Source: Eurosta solidaginis (Eukaryota > Arthropoda > Insecta > Diptera > Tephritidae). Taken from it: DNA of 64,000 nucleotides. This document shows positions 15,235 through 36,479 of the stretch, one piece after another; the stretch's first letter is position 1, and each line of letters starts with the position of its first letter. The translations under genes and the position numbers were made by a program. The DNA lies in the NCBI RefSeq assembly GCF_040869045.1, contig NC_090319.1, positions 228,012,490 to 228,076,489 on the forward strand. The letters are read 5' to 3'. The notes below the pieces were generated by a model. That model worked only from the letters and a program-made list of their open reading frames with translations, had not been told where the DNA came from and made no database searches.

Positions 15235-15596
15235 TGAAATAAATAAATAAATTAATGTAAGGCGCGGTAATCTCCGAAGAGATTTTATACGGAGCTTATA
15301 CCAATTTGCTCGTTTTTAATTTTTCCTAGAAATTGGCATGACGGCACCTACTTGTTTTTGCCGACTCCGGACGGCATCTGCAAGGCAGATGAGTTTTCAC
15401 TAAGAGCTTTTCATGGCAGAAATACACTCGGAGTGCTTGCCAAACACTGCATAGGGGCGACCACGCTTAGAAAAATTTTCTTCTATTGGAAAAACCTTAT
15501 TTCTAAAATTTTTGATGTTGCTTTGCCCGGGGCGTGAACCCAGGATCTTCGGTGTGGTAGGCGAAGCACGCTGCCATCACACCACGGTGACCGCCG
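15235..15596 (-). mobile_element. tRNA-derived SINE, full length
   Basis: On the minus strand the element starts with a tRNA-like head (CACCGTGGTGTGATGGCAG, then a box B-like GGTTCACGCCC). It continues with the AAAGCAACATC junction and a body containing CTGCCATGAAAAGC, and ends in CGCCTTACATTAATTT and an AAATA-rich tail. TTGAGT at 15229-15234 and 15597-15602 is a probable short target duplication. Transcription by RNA polymerase III is expected from family knowledge. Confidence 0.85.
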
Positions 15597-16955: not shown

Positions 16956-17216
16956 TGTTGTATTGTCATGTAGTGTCATGTATTTTGAGCCAGTTAAATT
17001 GAATGAAATAAAAAACTGGCTGGCAACACATTATCATGGAACCATGCATGTATGCACTTGCTGAGGGAGTGGAATGACGGAGAGAATTCTGATTGGCTGA
17101 ATCTCTCGTTATTCGACTACATCACGCAATTTTACCGGTATGCACAAGTTTTCCGCAAACGTATTTTTAATTATTATTAAATCATATTTAATTTATTTCT
17201 GTGAACGGCATCAGCG

Positions 17217-17253
17217 CACAGTGTTTCGTGTAGAACAAGCTAGCTGGACAAAA
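17217..17253 (+). repeat. Transib left terminal inverted repeat (RSS-like)
   Basis: The heptamer CACAGTG (17217-17223) is followed by a 24-bp spacer and ACAAAA (17248-17253), after which it diverges to TTA. The heptamer equals the consensus V(D)J recombination heptamer. The nonamer-like block matches only its first half here. Confidence 0.88.
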
Positions 17254-18047
17254 TTATTTTATGAGATTTTCCGTTTCACATGCAGTCATTTATTACAACT
17301 ACGTCATTTTTTCAGCCATATTTTATTTTTTTTTATTTTTTTCCAAAATTTTACTTCATATGCATAAATTTGCTTATTTCATATACAGTAACTCATGTGA
17401 ATAAGTGACATAGGTCCAAAAAAATTTAAAGGACTTAAGAATATTACTTTATTGTACTTAAATTGAATGGAATACAAATCTCAATACTCTAAAAAATTTT
17501 AAAAATTCTGAAAAAAAATTAAAATTTTTTATGAAAATTCGTCGAATTTTTCAAACATTTTTTAAATATAATTTAGTTTTTGTTATAGATCGTGACACAT
17601 TTTCTTATGGGAAATTAGTTAACCCTTTCGCTACTGATGTCCACTGCTGTGGACATGACTTTCAAGAGACAGTTATTTTGAATTTAAAACTTTTAAGCAT
17701 TATTTCGGTGGACACGGTCCTAGCGGTTTATTGCGAGTATAAAAATAATATTCCCGCTAATTGCTTTAAAATTTTGTCGGTATTGTGCAGGCTTTTGTGA
17801 AGGAAGGTTGAAATATTATATTTGATATGTTTGTTGTTGAATTCTTCATCATACAAAGTTTTTATGTTTACTTGTGTCAGCGATATTTTTTAGCTCGAAA
17901 TTTTCTCTTTAAACGGTTGTAAGTGGGAGATGATTGGAATTCAGGTGAGTATTCTACAGAGATAAAACCTTATGTCCTTTATAATGGACATGAGTAGTCA
18001 AGAGTTGTAAGTTAAGGGAAGATAATATTACTTTGTAGGTAAAAGTT

Positions 18048-19192
18048 ATGATGGCTAGGCACAAATTGTTGACAGATAATGAGATGGTTGGCGTTCTAAA
18101 TAATTTATTATTCGAATTTCGACGATGAGTCGGATAATGATAAAATTCATTCCACAGCGCTAACTAGGAAACGTTATGAAGGAGATGGAGAGGTGGGATG
18201 TGACGATACGAGTTGTGAGGATAGTGAAATGGAACGAGAGCTCAGTCCAGCATTTGAAAATCATCTTTTTCAACACTATCCTCAATAAGGAGAGGAGAGA
18301 ATGCTCCACAAAATGAGTATTTTTCCGTGAGAGTATTGCGTTAAGTTTCAGTTTTATACTAGAAAAATAAGTACCCCAGAAGCGGAAGCGGGAAATTAAT
18401 GTTTTGATTGGGCATATATAACTCAGAAATGAGACATTCAATGGAGGAACTCCCGCAGTAATGACCGAATTGCTGATTTTAATTTTACCCACCTGTTCAG
18501 ATGCCTAAAGGAGTCCAAAGTGAGTACGAGTATTTCCAAAACTACTTGCCGACTCAATTTTTTGAAGATGCATCCAACTTCACTAATCTTTATGGTGTGA
18601 GAAAGAATCAAACTTTCAACCAACTAGTCCAGGGAAAATTCGGAAGTTCAGTATTACCATTATTTGCTAACAATATGACACGTAATCGTTCTTATGGGCT
18701 GTGAACACATTTGCATTTAGTGGATACTAGTCTACCCCCACAAACCCAAGATAAATTATATAGCGTAAGACCTATAATGGATTCTATTCGGAAACGATTA
18801 TTGGAGCAAGAGGTGGAGGAAATCCTTTGTGTTGATGAACATATCATACCATTTAAAGGGCGCCTGGGAGTATATACGTGGTAAGCCTTGCTGGAAAAAG
18901 TGGAATGCCTATTGTTTTGTTGAGTAGCAGGGGTTTTCCACTGAAATTTAATTATAAATCAAACAAACTTGGTTTTGTTGCTTCAATCAAATGTATTTAT
19001 TGGCTTTCAGAAAAATATTGTTTTAACCTATTTTCAAAATATCATGCAGATACCCTCAATGTTCTCAAAATGCAAATAAGCGACGTCGAAGCAATGCTGT
19101 TCGTTGTAAAATGAAAGGATGCAAGCAAAAAACACACTCTTATTGCACGAAATGCCCACCTCTGCATTCGTCGAAATTCCTACTATTTTGGT
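18048..19192 (+). pseudogene. piggyBac transposase, decayed
   Basis: The ATG at 18048 begins MMARHKLLTDNEMVGVL. After a frameshift near 18122 the acidic N-terminus continues (DDESDNDKIHS, SCEDSEMERE). From about 18501 the catalytic core is recognisable: EYEYFQNYLPTQFF, SVRPIMDSIRKR and CVDEHIIPFKGR (near 18830), the block holding a conserved catalytic Asp. The middle and C-terminal core are deleted or scrambled after 18870. The C-terminal Cys-rich zinc domain survives near 19100-19165 (RCKMKGCKQKTHSYCTKC). It is too short and broken to be active; intact relatives are near 550-600 residues. Confidence 0.85.
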
Positions 19193-19289
19193 GAATACCA
19201 TTCAAATTTTTATTTTTCTCTAATAAAAATTAATTTAGTTGTAAAATTATTTCAATTGTTTATTTCTTCTCGAAATTTTTTAGACCTTA

Positions 19290-19651
19290 TAAATAAAAAA
19301 AATAAATGTAAGGCGCGATAACCTCCGAAGAGATCTAAGGCCGAGCTTCTCTTCCAATTTGCGTCGTGCTCCTCTTGATTTTCCCTACAAATTGGCCGGA
19401 CGGGACCTACATGATTTTATGCCGACTCCGAACGGCATCTGCAAGGCAGATGAGTTTTCACTGAGAGCTTTTCATGGCAGAAATACACCCGGAGCGCTTG
19501 CCAAACGCTGCCGAGGGGCGACCCCGCTTAGAAAAATTTTCTTCTAATTGAAAAACCTTATTTCTAAAATGTTTGATGTTGCTTTGCCCGGGGTTTGAAC
19601 CCGGGGCATCCGGTGTGGTAGGCAGAGCACGCTACCATCACACCACGGTGG
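19290..19651 (-). mobile_element. tRNA-derived SINE inserted in the piggyBac
   Basis: This is a full-length minus-strand copy with box A-like TGGTGTGATGG (19645-19635) and box B GGTTCAAACCC (19601-19591), the shared SINE body, and a CGCCTTACATTTATTT end. TTAGACCTTA at 19280-19289 and 19652-19661 is a perfect 10-bp target duplication. Confidence 0.92.
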
Positions 19652-19944
19652 TTAGACCTTACTGCCTTTTAAATTGACTACCTTGGCTACCCATGTCCAC
19701 TCAGGTGGACATGAAATTCTGACCACGCCCATATAAGGAGGCGATTTCTGTTTTCACTAAAGTACTTCCGAAACTCCTTACAGTAATTACCATTACTTAG
19801 AAAAATACTTGTAACGCGTACTAGCTGGCGGTAGTGAAAGGGTTAAAATAAATTTGCGAAAGCGAAAATTGTAAGAATTGTCCAAAAAGGGGTGTCTACT
19901 TATTTATGTGAGTGACAGTACATATGTACATACATACATATTTT

Positions 19945-20190
19945 TTATTTATTTGAGTATTTATCCTGGCACTACAATTTTTACAAAATTATTTTATAGT
20001 ACCAGTCAGGAATGTAAAATTGAATTACAATAATAATAATAACAATGTAAATAATTAAATTAATTATGTGAAAATTACTTATTACAAAAACTTAAAAGTA
20101 AAGTATCATACAAAGTAGAAAAGACAATAGATTTAAATTAAATAAAACCTGATCCAACAAAATGTTATAGGGTAGGTTATCTTTTATAAT
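19945..20190 (-). mobile_element. Probable LINE 3' UTR fragment
   Basis: AAAATTATTTTATAGT followed by a CAGTCAG-like phrase near 19987 recurs at 29490 (and 41748), where it is the 3' end of a minus-strand LINE. On the minus strand an AAATAAATAAAAAA tail follows at about 19958-19943. No coding sequence is present. Confidence 0.45.
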
Positions 20191-21172
20191 TATGTTATTA
20201 TTCGCTATCATCACTTTCATTCGATGAGTCACTTGTGGAATAGTCATGAGCATCAGCAACACTACTGTGAAAGCTTGAAACAACTGGGATATTTATTGAC
20301 TCCTCAACATTATCGGAGGATAGTAAATTTAAGACTTCTGAAGTCAGACATTTAAATTTTTTCTTAGGTATCTCCCAAAAAATGTTAACTAAAGTATCCG
20401 ATATTATAAGCAACATATTCATAAGATCTCTTTTCGTGGCTTCACGCGACTGCTTTTGTGTGTTATCGTCCCTGAATCGTCTCAAATCTTTGTTACGGGC
20501 TTCCTCAGAAAGTTGACCAATAGGTAAAATTGCTGATTTTATAATATCAGTACTATGCACTAAGATTTTATGAACTGTAACAGGCATATTAAACCATGGA
20601 TAGAGATCTATATATAGTTTTTTAGTCTCGACCGCAAATTTTTCAAATCTTTGGATATTTATATTGTACGCAGATGCTAATGCGCGAAGGAGAGTGTCGA
20701 ATCTTTTGATGAGCGTTACATCCAATCCCGTATTCTCAGCACTAGCCTCAGAATTTTCGAACAACCTACGAGCAGTGTTGCCGTCATCGGTATTGCCGAA
20801 ACCTGGTTCTGGTTTATCTACTATCAATCCAAGAACACTTTTACATTTATTCTGGATTTCGTTGGAACGTAGCTTTACACTCTCTTTATCTGCCTCATTC
20901 CTAAGCTGCCATTTTTTTACGTCGAGGCGATAACTTATGTGAAGCAAGCATTCAAAACATCTTATCCATGCATGGAGAGTAGACAAACCAAAACCAAGAT
21001 TATCTAGGTTAGGCGTAAAGTCCCGTAACTCATTATTCATATCTTTTGGAGTGGCACCACAAATATAACACTTTTGTGCCGAAGAAGTTTCAGTAAAAGC
21101 ATTGCAAACTTTTCTGTCAATCATTGTAAGAAACATATTGTGATTTACGGAAACTTTGTATTCTTCGAGCAT

Positions 21173-22178
21173 GTTATGCCGATATCCAAAAATGAAATCG
21201 ACCCTGTAAGTATTCCATCTATAAAGATTGGCTCGCAGGCACTTAGTACCACTGACAAAGTTAAAAATTTAGGCTTTGTATTAAATAACAAATTAACTTC
21301 TTTCGACCACGTTAATAAAGTAGTCCGCAGTGTTTATGTTATACTGCGGACCTTACGCATATCGGCACCGTTCACACCACAGGAAACTCTTCACAAGCTT
21401 GCAATGCAGCTAATTGTACCCCAATTCACATACTTTGAACTTGTGTATACTAAACTTGACTCGGAGTCCGCCAACAAGATCAATGTAACCTTCAATAATG
21501 TTACCAGGTACGTGTATGGGGTAGGTCGATACGATCACATATCACCCTGGAGGGATAAAATTCTGGGATGCAACATCCTTAATTACTTGGCCGCCAGAAA
21601 CTGCATGCTCATGTTTAAACTATTAGAATGTAAGCTCCCCAAGTATCTTTATGACAAACTGCATTTTACCAGGTCTCAAAGAAACCGTAAATTGGTGGTT
21701 CCGATGTTCAAATACTTAGCGTCTAGCAGATTGTTTTTTATTAGCGCTGTTAGACTTTGGAACGCTATTCCCGAATCAATTAAAGTAGGGCTGAATTATA
21801 GCAACTTCAAAAGCATTATACTGAAATACTTCGCAGATGTTGATATTTCTTCTATATTTTGACTAAAATACTATTTCTAAAATAATCTTTATGTCATCTA
21901 ATTTCCTTGCTTCTCCTTTCATTGTTTTCTGTACCTCTGCTATTCATGTGTCTCGATTAATTTGTAATAGTTATAAGATTAATTTAAGTAAGTGCATATA
22001 TTAAACGCATACTTTTATGTCAGTAGGTAAATTTTAGTTTTCTTTAAATTTTTATATTGTGAACTTCCCATTTACATAAAATGTATTAGCATAAGTTTTT
22101 AATGTCAGTTGATGTACATATAAAAGACTTAAGTTCTTAGTTGTACAAATTTGTTAAATAAAATGAAATGAAAAAATG
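21173..22178 (+). mobile_element. Jockey/CR1-group LINE 3' end inserted in the RAG1-like gene
   Basis: The plus-strand LINE splits the minus-strand transposase between the codons for PTKY and MLEEYK. It ends in an AAATAAAATGAAATGAAAAAA tail-like stretch near 22158-22176. ATGT borders both sides (21171-21174 and about 22176), consistent with a very short target duplication. The 5' end is truncated inside the RT post-palm region. Confidence 0.85.
21178..21862 (+). pseudogene. LINE RT post-palm and C-terminal region
   Basis: An open frame runs to a stop at 21862 and encodes the post-palm region of a LINE RT: KVKNLGFVLNNKLTSFDHVN (near 21265), QLIVPQFTYFELVY (near 21410), NNVTRYVYG (near 21490), the CKLPKYLYDKL block and SAVRLWNAIPESIK near 21740. 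It is the same domain order as the C-terminus of the minus-strand LINE at 29776. There is no RNase H or zinc motif. The 3' UTR is about 300 bp. Confidence 0.8.
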
Positions 22179-23299
22179 TACTTTGTTGGCAACAACGGAC
22201 TTATCTCCTCTAAAACTTTGTTCGTTTCAAAAAGAATAAAATCTTTTGTTTCTTTAGAAAAAATAAATTTAATTGGTAGAAGAAGGTCGAGGATTCTGCC
22301 AAACAATGTTACCTTTTTCATCCTGTAATTGAAGAGGAACGAAAGAAAATATAAACAAAAACTCATCAGTGTCAGAACTGCATGTAAACTTTTGCTTATA
22401 TGTGCTATGGCCAGAGCTTCCATCGCAACCCCACTTGCTGATTAAAGTATACGTCAAGTTTGTAGGTAATAAACTAATAAAAACTTCTTGATTTGCTAAA
22501 ACTAAACGCTCAACAGTTTTATCTAATACGGAATGGACTTTAATTTCCGCACGTGTTTCACCCACATCAATTTCATTTGGATAGCATTCTGCCTTAGCTT
22601 TTCTTAGACTATAAAATGATGGATAAACCTTATGGCCTGTCTTGATGCTCCACTTCCAAGTCGTTTTGTACCCATGAGTCGTCGACTTGCTATCTACGTA
22701 GTATGCTAAAGCTTCTACATTGCTCAATTATCTTGCATCTGGCTCACATGTCATCTTTTTGCCGGATATTTGAGTGGTTTCATGTGATTGTGATTCCGCG
22801 TTGATACTTCTGCCGCATAAAGTAACTCACCAGGACTTATAGATTGCAAGAGGTCATCCACTCGACGCCGTTTGGTTTTTTCACTGCAGCTAACAAAGTC
22901 CTTCTTTCGTTTTCCGGGGTCGGGGTTACCTGAAGAAGTGGTTGGTTGATCTGATGGCAACTTTGAATCCACCGTTATTGGAAATGTGAAGTCTGCACTC
23001 GAAAGCCACTCCGAGTTTTTATTCAAAAATCGCTCCTTATGTCTTCCAGAAGTGTTCCACTTTTGATGCAGCTTCGACGAATATGTCGATATTTGTAAGC
23101 TTACTTTTTATCGAATACTCGGCTGCTTCGCTTAAATCGTACTTAAGTACAACAAAATCCAATAATTCTTGATATCTGGTTTCCTTCGAATGTTGAACCC
23201 AAATGTCAAAAAACTCCGTTCTTGGTGCGGTTATACTAAACTGCTTTGTGTTGTTGGTTTTCCGACAGGGTGAATAGCTGAGGATTGTTGTGCTGCCAT

Positions 23300-24184
23300 C
23301 TTAAGTGTCGTTGATCGTTCTGATTTGTTATCCAATGTGAAGTATTTATATTACATTCAAGTATTGGCGTAGATGCTACCAAATGGGGTTGTCTTGTGTA
23401 GCGTTCCTGTGTGGTTATACCTGCATTAGGATTGTTTTGTATGTACCTGTTTTTATGCCTTGGTGACTGGTGCGGTAGGTTGTGGCAGGTTGAAGTCAGT
23501 GATCTTCGCCTTTTTGCTTTTGGTGTGCTCTGGTTGACCTTGCGCGTTTATTTTTGTGTGTTTTATGGCTACGTGTTTGTTCCCTGTACCTGGGAATTGG
23601 TTTTGCCGTTTTTAGATCAGCTTTAAAGGTTCAAATATCTCGTCGGAGCTGGTACGTACATACATCCTATTTTATATGTGGAGATAACAAAATCTACAAA
23701 AAAGAAAATTAAAAATAGATGTGCAAGGAATTCGCAATGATTTTTTTCTTTCTACTATTAGAGAATACTTCCGACTAAATTTAAAAAAAAATTTAGCCCG
23801 GGTGTCCGCGGATGTATGTAACTTTCTTGTCCCTAAAGTTAAAAATATAGAGAAAAAATACCTTTTCTTATTAATAACGAAATGTTAAATATATTGAAAA
23901 TACTCTAATTGCGAAAGAATTACTATTAAAAAATTTTACTTACCTTCGGGCTTAGAATGCATCCAAAAAATTATATAAAAGTGTTCACTTAAAAGAAATA
24001 TGAAGTTAAATATTCAACAAGAATTTTGCAAATTAATCAATGCATTTTACGGTCACTCCTGCCTTCTTACTTCAATTACTCAATATACATATATGAGCAA
24101 AAATATAAAAAAAAGCAGATATCCCGTTATTTTGTTTGTTTTCTTTCATTTCTCATTACACTTTTCTTGTAATAAGAACTTTGT
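23300..24184 (-). other. Transib 5' untranslated region
   Basis: DNA between the probable transposase start and the right terminal repeat. No second gene of the element (for example a RAG2-like kelch protein) is visible. Its small open frames, including a hydrophobic 71-residue one at 23411-23626, have no recognisable features. Confidence 0.5.
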
Positions 24185-24221
24185 TTTTGTCCAGCTAGCT
24201 TGTTCTACACGAAACACTGTG
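24185..24221 (-). repeat. Transib right terminal inverted repeat (RSS-like)
   Basis: On the minus strand CACAGTG (24221-24215), the same 24-bp spacer and ACAAAAACA (24190-24182), which differs at one position from the canonical nonamer ACAAAAACC. It is identical over 37 bp to the left end. Confidence 0.88.
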
Positions 24222-25764
24222 CAGCGACGCAAAATCCAACTATTCGCGAAATCCAAATCTGCAATTTGAAAGTCTAAAAAAAAGGTGAAAAATTTAACTA
24301 CTAACTACTTATGTTGAAGAAATGTGGACTAAAAGCGAAAAATTTGCTTGCCGTCACACGTGTGCCACATAAATGTTCGTACCAACCAAAACAAAGAAAG
24401 AAGAATGCTGAATAAAATAAGTATGTGAAAATTATAGCGGGTGTTGGTATACGTTGCCAGAAAGGAAGCCTACGAAATCCAAAAAAAATAAAAAAAAATT
24501 TTTAATCACAAAAATTACAAAAAAATTTAAAATCCACAAAAAATGTTGAAATCGAAATAAACAAAACTACAAAAATATATAAAATAAAAAAAAAAGTACA
24601 AAATGTAAAAAAAAATTTTTTTAAAATGAAAAAAATAAAAAAAAATCAAAAACTGAAAATTACAAAAAAAATTTCCTAAAAATTCGAAGTCCAAATTTAA
24701 GGTTTGTGGAAAATGTTTAGAAATTAAACAAAACACATTAATTTTAAACAAAAACAATTACTCACAAAAATTACATACATGAAAATCAAAAAAAAAAAAT
24801 AGGAGACGAAATTCATAATTTTCTACACAAAAATTACATGCACTAACTTTTACCAAAAATACAAAATTTACTATGTTACTAAAAATCAAATCTAACATAA
24901 TTGGATAATACATAAAACTTTCACTCTACGAAAAAAAACGATTTCAAAAAAAGAAAAAAAATTATTAATTTTGAACTATATATGTATGTATGTGCATATG
25001 TATGTGCTGGTGCGTACAGTCTTCCGAAAAGCCAGTCCCAGTGATGAATAACGGCGCATAAAATAGCGGCACTAAAACCGTAAAATTATCTGTGTAGAAT
25101 AAAATAACGGCACTAAAGCCGTCAAATCATCTATAAAGCATTAATTAACAACATTAACATTGCGGCACTAAAGCCGAAAAATCACCCTTAATGCAAGTGC
25201 GCAATAAAATAACGGCACTTAAACAGTATCATCGTATATCACAGTACAGCAGAAGAAAAAAAGAGGACAGAACAGCAGGCAGAGCAGCGGCAGCACAGTA
25301 AGGCAGAGGAGCGCAGCAAAGTACAGCAATGTACATATGTATGTATGAATAAAGTTATATTTTAATATATATGTATATTAAATTGATTTTGACATTACAA
25401 TAAAAATTTAAATTTTAATAACCTTTCGAATTTCTACACTTGACAAAAAAAGTTACCATTAAATAATTACAATTTTAATGTTATTGATATCGAAATATAC
25501 ATTTAAACAATTTCATTTAACGAGTTAAAGCGGGGATTACCCTTATTGCATTGCGTTGAAAAAAAACTTGACTGTGAAGCAAATTGGAAATGTTTATAAA
25601 AATGCGAAAAATTATTGCAACTTTTTGACTTGGAAAAAGGATCAGAAGTTCAAAATTGTAGTTTTAATATGAAATTATTTAAAATTATATATAATTAAAT
25701 GAAGTTGAATGAAAATTTTCCCAAATTATTAAATAAATTATAAATTAAAAGTTGCTTTGAAGCA
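24222..25764. other. A-rich and AT-rich noncoding DNA
   Basis: 24470-24970 is dominated by A-runs. A TATGTATG-type microsatellite sits near 24985-25010 and again near 25330. CGGC hairpin repeats occupy 25047-25230, and a CAGCAG/CAGAGCAG-rich patch lies at 25245-25330. No coding frame is credible. Confidence 0.5.
25047..25230. repeat. Four spaced CGGC-ACTAAA-GCCG hairpin units
   Basis: CGGCACTAAAACCG near 25066, CGGCACTAAAGCCG near 25109, CGGCACTAAAGCCG near 25164 and a degraded CGGCACTTAAACAG near 25213 each follow an AATAAAATAACGG-like phrase. They recur at about 43-55 bp spacing and can form 4-bp stems. The array is repeated in the second unit near 37305. Confidence 0.7.
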
Positions 25765-34935: not shown

Positions 34936-36479
34936 GTCGTCGACTTGCTATCTACGTAGTATGCTAAAGCTTCTACATTGCTCAATTATCTTGCATCTGG
35001 CTCACATGTCATCTTTTTGCCGGATATTTGAGTGGTTTCATGTGATTGTGATTCCGCGTTGATACTTCTGCCGCATAAAGTAACTCACCAGGACTTATAG
35101 ATTGCAAGAGGTCATCCACTCGACGCCGTTTGGTTTTTTCACTGCAGCTAACAAAGTCCTTCTTTCGTTTTCCGGGGTCGGGGTTACCTGAAGAAGTGGT
35201 TGGTTGATCTGATGGCAACTTTGAATCCACCGTTATTGGAAATGTGAAGTCTGCACTCGAAAGCCACTCCGAGTTTTTATTCAAAAATCGCTCCTTATGT
35301 CTTCCAGAAGTGTTCCACTTTTGATGCAGCTTCGACGAATATGTCGATATTTGTAAGCTTACTTTTTATCGAATACTCGGCTGCTTCGCTTAAATCGTAC
35401 TTAAGTACAACAAAATCCAATAATTCTTGATATCTGGTTTCCTTCGAATGTTGAACCCAAATGTCAAAAAACTCCGTTCTTGGTGCGGTTATACTAAACT
35501 GCTTTGTGTTGTTGGTTTTCCGACAGGGTGAATAGCTGAGGATTGTTGTGCTGCCATCTTAAGTGTCGTTGATCGTTCTGATTTGTTATCCAATGTGAAG
35601 TATTTATATTACATTCAAGTATTGGCGTAGATGCTACCAAATGGGGTTGTCTTGTGTAGCGTTCCTGTGTGGTTATACCTGCATTAGGATTGTTTTGTAT
35701 GTACCTGTTTTTATGCCTTGGTGACTGGTGCGGTAGGTTGTGGCAGGTTGAAGTCAGTGATCTTCGCCTTTTTGCTTTTGGTGTGCTCTGGTTGACCTTG
35801 CGCGTTTATTTTTGTGTGTTTTATGGCTACGTGTTTGTTCCCTGTACCTGGGAATTGGTTTTGCCGTTTTTAGATCAGCTTTAAAGGTTCAAATATCTCG
35901 TCGGAGCTGGTACGTACATACATCCTATTTTATATGTGGAGATAACAAAATCTACAAAAAAGAAAATTAAAAATAGATGTGCAAGGAATTCGCAATGATT
36001 TTTTCTTTCTACTATTAGAGAATACTTCCGACTAAATTTAAAAAAAAAATTTAGCCCGGGTGTCCGCGGATGTATGTAACTTTCTTGTCCCTAAAGTTAA
36101 AAATATAGAGAAAAAATACCTTTTCTTATTAATAACGAAATGTTAAATATATTGAAAATACTCTAATTGCGAAAGAATTACTATTAAAAAATTTTACTTA
36201 CCTTCGGGCTTAGAATGCATCCAAAAAATTATATAAAAGTGTTCACTTAAAAGAAATATGAAGTTAAATATTCAACAAGAATTTTGCAAATTAATCAATG
36301 CATTTTACGGTCACTCCTGCCTTCTTACTTCAATTACTCAATATACATATATGAGCAAAAATATAAAAAAAAGCAGATATCCCGTTATTTTGTTTGTTTT
36401 CTTTCATTTCTCATTACACTTTTCTTGTAATAAGAACTTTGTTTTTGTCCAGCTAGCTTGTTCTACACGAAACACTGTG
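34936..36479 (-). mobile_element. Transib/RAG1-like element, duplicated 5' end
   Basis: Copy of 22678-24221. It has the right terminal repeat (36443-36479, heptamer 36479-36473), the 5' UTR and the N-terminal third of the transposase up to VDSKST, where the junction cuts it. CAGCG follows at 36480-36484. It carries one usable-looking RSS-like end and no partner end in this unit. Confidence 0.92.

Follow-up and report, generated by a model that had tools for sequence, protein, structure and literature searches.

Transib transposons and the RAG-like (RAGL) elements are the described systems closest to the locus considered here. HzTransib of Helicoverpa zea (PDB 6pqn and relatives) is a 3518-bp element with a 5-bp target duplication, GCTCG (PMC1852546, in part; papers so marked are represented by portions of their text), and its ends carry the heptamer of the V(D)J recombination signal sequence (RSS) with little or no similarity to the nonamer, as in most Transib families, whose ends resemble the RSS heptamer and not the nonamer (PMC8289069, in part). 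Known Transibs encode one protein (PMC4411706, in part), whereas ProtoRAG/RAGL elements combine a RAG1-type catalytic core with a RAG2-like partner; RAGL tips and 5-bp duplications are described in PMC7204232 (in part), and the tips of ProtoRAG read CACTATG with a 27/31-bp spacing (PMC8289069, in part). Asymmetric RSS-like ends of the 12/23 type are on record for Transib5 of Drosophila melanogaster and for Transib2 and N1-N3 of Anopheles gambiae (PMC8355894, Figure 2 legend and section 6). Here, we compare with these systems a Transib element at positions 17217–24221 of the window, the whole 64,000-nucleotide stretch of Eurosta solidaginis DNA that was analysed (NC_090319.1, 228,012,490 to 228,076,489), together with its relatives across the 1.9-Gb assembly. 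Listings of open-licence papers show none that deals with Transib in Tephritidae, or in Eurosta, the genus of this goldenrod gall fly.

Ends and flanks of the window element

The element belongs to what we term family A, the Transib family of the window element in E. solidaginis, and is bounded by perfect 37-bp inverted repeats (38 bp once the G/C of the adjoining duplication is included). Each tip is the heptamer CACAGTG, which a 24-bp spacer (TTTCGTGTAGAACAAGCTAGCTGG) separates from an inner box, and the sequence CAGCG is repeated directly outside both ends:

17212–17216, target-site duplication CAGCG, left copy, read from the sequence
17217–17253, plus strand, left terminal inverted repeat, 37 bp
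17217–17223, plus strand, heptamer CACAGTG, left
17248–17256, plus strand, inner box ACAAAATTA, left, 6/9 to ACAAAAACC, spacer 24
24182–24190, minus strand, inner box ACAAAAACA, right, 8/9 to ACAAAAACC, spacer 24
24185–24221, minus strand, right terminal inverted repeat, 37 bp
24215–24221, minus strand, heptamer CACAGTG, right
24222–24226, target-site duplication CAGCG, right copy, read from the sequence

The inverted repeats start with CAC, as is typical of Transib, and the 37-mer end has 0 matches across 100 shuffles of the window. Compared with a 23-type RSS (consensus from PMC8289069, in part), the heptamer matches exactly at both tips and the nonamer ACAAAAACC is matched at 8/9 positions at the right end and at 6/9 at the left, but each end has a 24-bp spacer, one base off. 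When 9-mers at positions inside 21 family A elements were scored against ACAAAAACC, matches of at least 8/9 occurred at 0.07% of positions and matches of at least 7/9 at 0.43%.

An initial annotation, made from the letters alone, had reported the 37-bp repeats, the CACAGTG tips, the 24-bp spacer and the CAGCG duplication, all of which we recover at the same coordinates. The one-mismatch nonamer that it placed at the right end is likewise present, whereas the box at the left end is weak. In its description of the ends as unusually like a 23-type RSS, ‘unusually’ overstates the case because the same heptamer occurs in three families of this genome, the spacer is 24 bp, and RSS-like 12/23 Transibs are already on record. 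The exact heptamer alone is unremarkable. With the V(D)J 12RSS and 23RSS, family A has in common the exact CACAGTG and the 8/9 box, but it differs from them in having a spacer of 24 at both ends and in that its sequences form the tips of a transposon rather than antigen-receptor signals. Like HzTransib it makes 5-bp duplications, but it has an 8/9 nonamer match at one end; like ProtoRAG/RAGL it has CAC tips and 5-bp duplications, but with CACAGTG at 24/24. By description only, this symmetry also sets it apart from the asymmetric Transib5, Transib2 and N1-N3 (PMC8355894, in part). Family A is a further family of the known Transib superfamily, with an RSS resemblance above the usual at one end.

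Transposase of the window element

The coding part of the element lies on the minus strand in two regions:

20198–21174, minus strand, C-terminal part of the Transib transposase; 324-aa open frame at 20198–21172, HzTransib match at E 2.1e-70
22176–23299, minus strand, N-terminal part of the Transib transposase with frame breaks; open pieces at 22269–22727 and 22751–23026

The open piece at 22269–22727 matches HzTransib at E 6.6e-20, and the HzTransib matches span 257 and 145 residues in the two window pieces. The start codon (MAAQQ...) was positioned by comparison with the family A copy L057 and with P0001. As the gene is split by frame breaks, the window copy cannot produce a whole transposase; its ends are intact. 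A profile made from 20 relatives, out of 120 among the matches listed (317 found), matches HzTransib at 1.1e-182 and, with values of 2e-12 or weaker, chains of RAG1. In the profile–RAG1 alignment three acidic residues (D in WGcDG, D in mvDGK and E in AqEArnk) pair with cDG, yDeK and nEsGNK of RAG1, the catalytic residues of which are D600, D708 and E962. The window pieces keep WGCDG, MIDRK and EARNK, the last within SEEARNKD as opposed to SEEAQEARNKD in the alignment consensus. The transposase is thus homologous to the Transib/RAG1 core, has the DDE residues, and shares the RAG1-type catalytic core with ProtoRAG/RAGL. The Transib/RAG1-like identity given in the initial annotation stands and its interpretation is supported, as the protein matches a Transib transposase of solved structure and, via the profile, RAG1. 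None of the refuting checks that the annotation proposed went against it. Many relatives, P0002 and P0038 among them, have a precomputed Pfam domain PF26100.1, but the Pfam scan made here did not report it in these two proteins.

Copies of family A in the genome

A genome-wide search with the 37-mer end at up to 3 mismatches gives 1458 + 1431 = 2,889 matches, with 0 in the reversed control. About a hundred of these were looked at, each with 0 mismatches, and 30 convergent pairs were found among the matches listed; 25 of the 30 were examined (20 whole, 5 by their ends), and the window copy makes 26. Identical 5-bp duplications flank 22/26 copies (21/25 without the window), the other copies having the same true ends as those annotated in the window. 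The first base of the duplication is C in 22/22 and the last base is G in 20/22, and the GC content of 0.72, versus 0.376 for the window, agrees with the GC-rich 5-bp duplications of Transib. All 25 other pairs examined carry ACAAAAACA at one end and ACAAAATTA at the other.

Empty counterparts were sought by comparing 27 joined flanks with a set of retrieved genome stretches. For three family A copies, a related repeat is found that is without the element and has a single copy of the duplicated sequence (L050 in L011; L054 in L013; L055 in L007 and L003); this single copy is exact in two cases and has one mismatch in the third (L055/L003). These sites bear out, for copies elsewhere in the genome, the duplication model of the initial annotation, whereas for the window copy there was no empty counterpart among those stretches. 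The joined flanks of L058 and L062 also gave matches that spanned the junction or came close to it, but these fell in tandem or simple repeats and were left uncounted.

Half of the whole copies (10/20) are only 2.1–2.4 kb long, and nine of these ten are without a block that starts near 751–855 and ends near 2374–2377 of L041. Such deleted copies have probably been mobilised in trans by the transposase of longer ones. The window element is otherwise an ordinary, decayed member of family A.

Family B and its 12/23-type ends

Family B was reached via a genome search for CACAGTG-N11/12-ACAAAA, which gave 158 + 165 = 323 matches versus 41 + 43 = 84 for the reversed control. Because the search pattern contained it, the 12-bp box of this family is a selection criterion, whereas its transposase, its duplications and its 23-bp box are independent of the pattern. 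The copy to which this search led, L059, is 5.2 kb long; it contains pieces of a Transib transposase, has CACAGTG as each tip and is flanked on either side by CGACG. Its ends, searched at up to 3 mismatches, return 22 ‘12’ ends and 26 ‘23’ ends (controls 0), of which 36/48 make 18 convergent pairs within 25 kb and 12 are unpaired. Every pair joins a ‘12’ end to a ‘23’ end, with 0 like-end pairs; each copy inherits this arrangement, which alone is no evidence of a rule. Identical 5-bp duplications flank 16/18 pairs, with G at position 2 in 16/16 and C at position 4 in 15/16, and the better transposase pieces are 36–54% identical to P0002.

ACAAAA stands at 12 bp in 17/18 ‘12’ ends, and ACAAAAATA at 23 bp in 16/18 ‘23’ ends. 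A strict 12/23 reading is weakened by extra ACAAAA boxes, which occur at 12 in 16/18 ‘23’ ends and, as a second box, at 20 in 13/18 ‘12’ ends; by the incomplete occurrence of ACAAAAATA, present at exactly 12 and 23 in only 10/18 copies; and by the heptamer, which is exact in only 12/18 ‘12’ ends (17/18 ‘23’ ends). The boxes at 12 and 23 parallel those of the V(D)J 12RSS and 23RSS, and by description only the ends are like those of Transib5, Transib2 and N1-N3. Asymmetric 12/23 Transibs are already described (PMC8355894, in part), so that family B, a 12/23-type example present in multiple copies, is an addition to them and not the first of its sort.

At the family B copy L074/L075, the right flank of L075 starts C-CACAGTG, a second heptamer beside the copy's own tip that is due either to chance or to an abutting element. 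CACAGTG-12-ACAAAA was also seen as a lone end, with CGACG or CGCAG in front of it, at L005 (1501–1545), L002 and L008, and other recurrent sequences of the CACAGTG-N11/12-ACAAAA pattern are present among the genome matches. For L005 and L008 as further 12/23 families, neither an end with a matching duplication nor a P0002 or P0038 match was found within ~6.5 kb inward; another CACAGTG lies 3.2 kb off in L005, where the flank differs (CATCG versus CGACG). The end sequences of Transib5, Transib2 and N1-N3 in PMC8355894 are taken from an earlier source, presumably Kapitonov and Jurka 2005.

Family C and the common box

The protein P0038 matches the genome at 100% over 617 residues (C1:227944930–227946780). 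It was considered as a family A member and rejected, as the ends of its element differ and define family C. The copy in question, L100 (C1:227944471–227947410), has an intact 617-aa frame and lies ~66 kb before the window; P0038 shares 49% identity with a stretch of a family A copy located at C1:102.87 Mb. Tracing the family by the two ends of L100, with pairs made by hand, gave 11 right-type ends at up to 2 mismatches (the other 69/80 matches, at 3 mismatches, resemble family A), 10 left-type ends and 7 copies with both. Family C is the least clean of the families, with identical duplications in 4/7 pairs, and the intact-frame copy (L116/L117) is among the 3/7 without one. CACAGTG is exact in 4/7 left-type and 7/7 right-type ends, and the layout is 24/24, with TGGACAA at spacer 24 in most ends examined.

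The exact heptamer CACAGTG occurs in each of the three Transib families described here, and so does the TGGACAA box, which is placed 24/24 in family A and, in most ends examined, in family C, whereas family B has it (as TGGACAAAAATA) at spacings of 12 and 23. Its recurrence in three families speaks for the box being a genuine component of the end, most likely a transposase contact.

Proposed mechanism and alternatives

The ends, the duplication, the three empty counterparts, the number of end matches, the HzTransib/RAG1 homology and TGGACAA in three families are direct observations, and we are highly confident that the window element is a decayed member of an abundant Transib family, flanked by a 5-bp duplication and likely moved by cut-and-paste via a RAG1-like DDE transposase that bound CACAGTG and, as predicted, the TGGACAAAA box 24 bp inward. 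In this mechanism, the transposase would bind the CACAGTG tip and also the TGGACAAAA box, the latter contact being predicted because the box is conserved; the box may be held by a GRPR-type segment that aligns weakly with the nonamer-binding domain of RAG1. HzTransib and RAG biochemistry shows a nick 5′ of the heptamer, hairpin formation at the flanks and a staggered 5-bp insertion, steps that by analogy would apply here. Several results weigh against this account. Four of the 26 family A pairs are without an identical duplication (L042, L044, L049 and L057; in the flanks of L057 the duplication is off by one base), and the 25 other copies are the best preserved ones because they were drawn from zero-mismatch matches. 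The GRPR-type segment aligns with the GGRPR segment of RAG1, part of its nonamer-binding domain, at 7.5 bits and an i-Evalue of 11, which is not significant alone. The Pfam RAG1 family (PF12940) is absent from the Pfam results for the window pieces and L057, and among six proteins scanned only P0038 passes its cut-off.

That the RSS-like look is mostly chance, so that nothing beyond the CAC tip and some A-rich sequence would matter and the nonamer match would be without functional meaning, is a possibility to which we give real though lesser weight. It would accommodate the left end of family A, which is only 6/9 to the nonamer, and the several ACAAAA in family B ends (12 and mostly 20; 12 and 23), which suggest that spacing may not be strictly read; in most Transib families, moreover, the ends are symmetric and show slight nonamer similarity or none (PMC8289069, in part). 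Against it, an 8/9 nonamer match occurs at 0.07% of positions, and TGGACAA recurs in three families with well-separated transposases (P0038 at 49%; family B at 36–54% to P0002). CAC tips are also common to superfamilies of the CMC/Chapaev type, so that an element of such a superfamily might start with CACAGTG by coincidence; we consider this highly improbable, as the protein matches HzTransib over both pieces, the searches made prefer Transib, and the duplications are 5 bp long and GC-rich. RAG1 homology together with RSS-like ends would equally suit a RAGL/ProtoRAG transposon, but four near-full-length family A copies (L041, L042, L045 and L057) show no RAG2-like partner on the strand that encodes the transposase, where non-transposase frames of at least 70 codons reach at most 97 codons, these frames not having been searched individually. 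A RAG2 model has no match in the genome, although control genomes are equally silent and absence is thus not proven; we hold a RAGL/ProtoRAG origin to be very unlikely.

The preferred reading of the window element as a Transib copy leaves a broader conjecture, which we offer as speculative and on balance unlikely. The 24/24 families and one true 12/23 family would coexist with the same heptamer and TGGACAAAAA box; at one of the two ends of family B the box would have shifted by a single turn of DNA, and the family would transpose in 12/23 pairing with no RAG2 involved. This would make the 12/23 format a native Transib solution older than vertebrate RAG, and vertebrate RAG would cut the family B ends as 12RSS/23RSS. 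The origin of two-part, two-length V(D)J signals is an open question, and the testable interest here is that families of the 24/24 and 12/23 types coexist and have one box in common. One insect genome holding both types, with CACAGTG tips and mostly clean duplications, supplies matched natural substrates; these could show whether the transposase alone reads spacing, which would allow a test of how the vertebrate 12/23 rule arose.

Nested insertions and neighbouring duplications

The window element measures 7,005 bp because of two nested insertions, without which it is ~3.8 kb; these were recognised by comparison with the family A copies L057 (3,760 bp) and L045. They and a further end copy are located as follows:

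17619–19846, nested piggyBac-like element between TTAA copies (17619–17622 and 19843–19846), tips CCCTTTCGCTAC/GTAGTGAAAGGG; L057 and L045 are without it
21175–22175, plus strand, nested retrotransposon-like insertion within the transposase gene; L057 and L045 are without it
36443–36479, minus strand, second copy of the right end, inside a tandem duplication

A 59-aa piece of the first insertion matches DDE_Tnp_1_7, a piggyBac-type domain, at 4.4e-6, whereas the second has no Pfam match and is of non-LTR type by appearance only. The third end copy in the window (36443–36479) was considered as a separate insertion and rejected, as it sits in the 12.3-kb tandem duplication. This duplication (22676–34938/34934–47196, ~12.26 kb, 99.94% identical) has its left breakpoint inside the Transib transposase gene and is either a recent event or an assembly artefact. 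A second direct duplication (50391–56002/58390–64000) aligns over 5.6 kb to the window edge at 99.7% identity with an offset of 8.0 kb. A SINE-like repeat, its tRNA-like promoter judged by eye only, occurs at 15239–15589 and 19289–19650, and the same repeat is the insertion target of the Transib copy L055.

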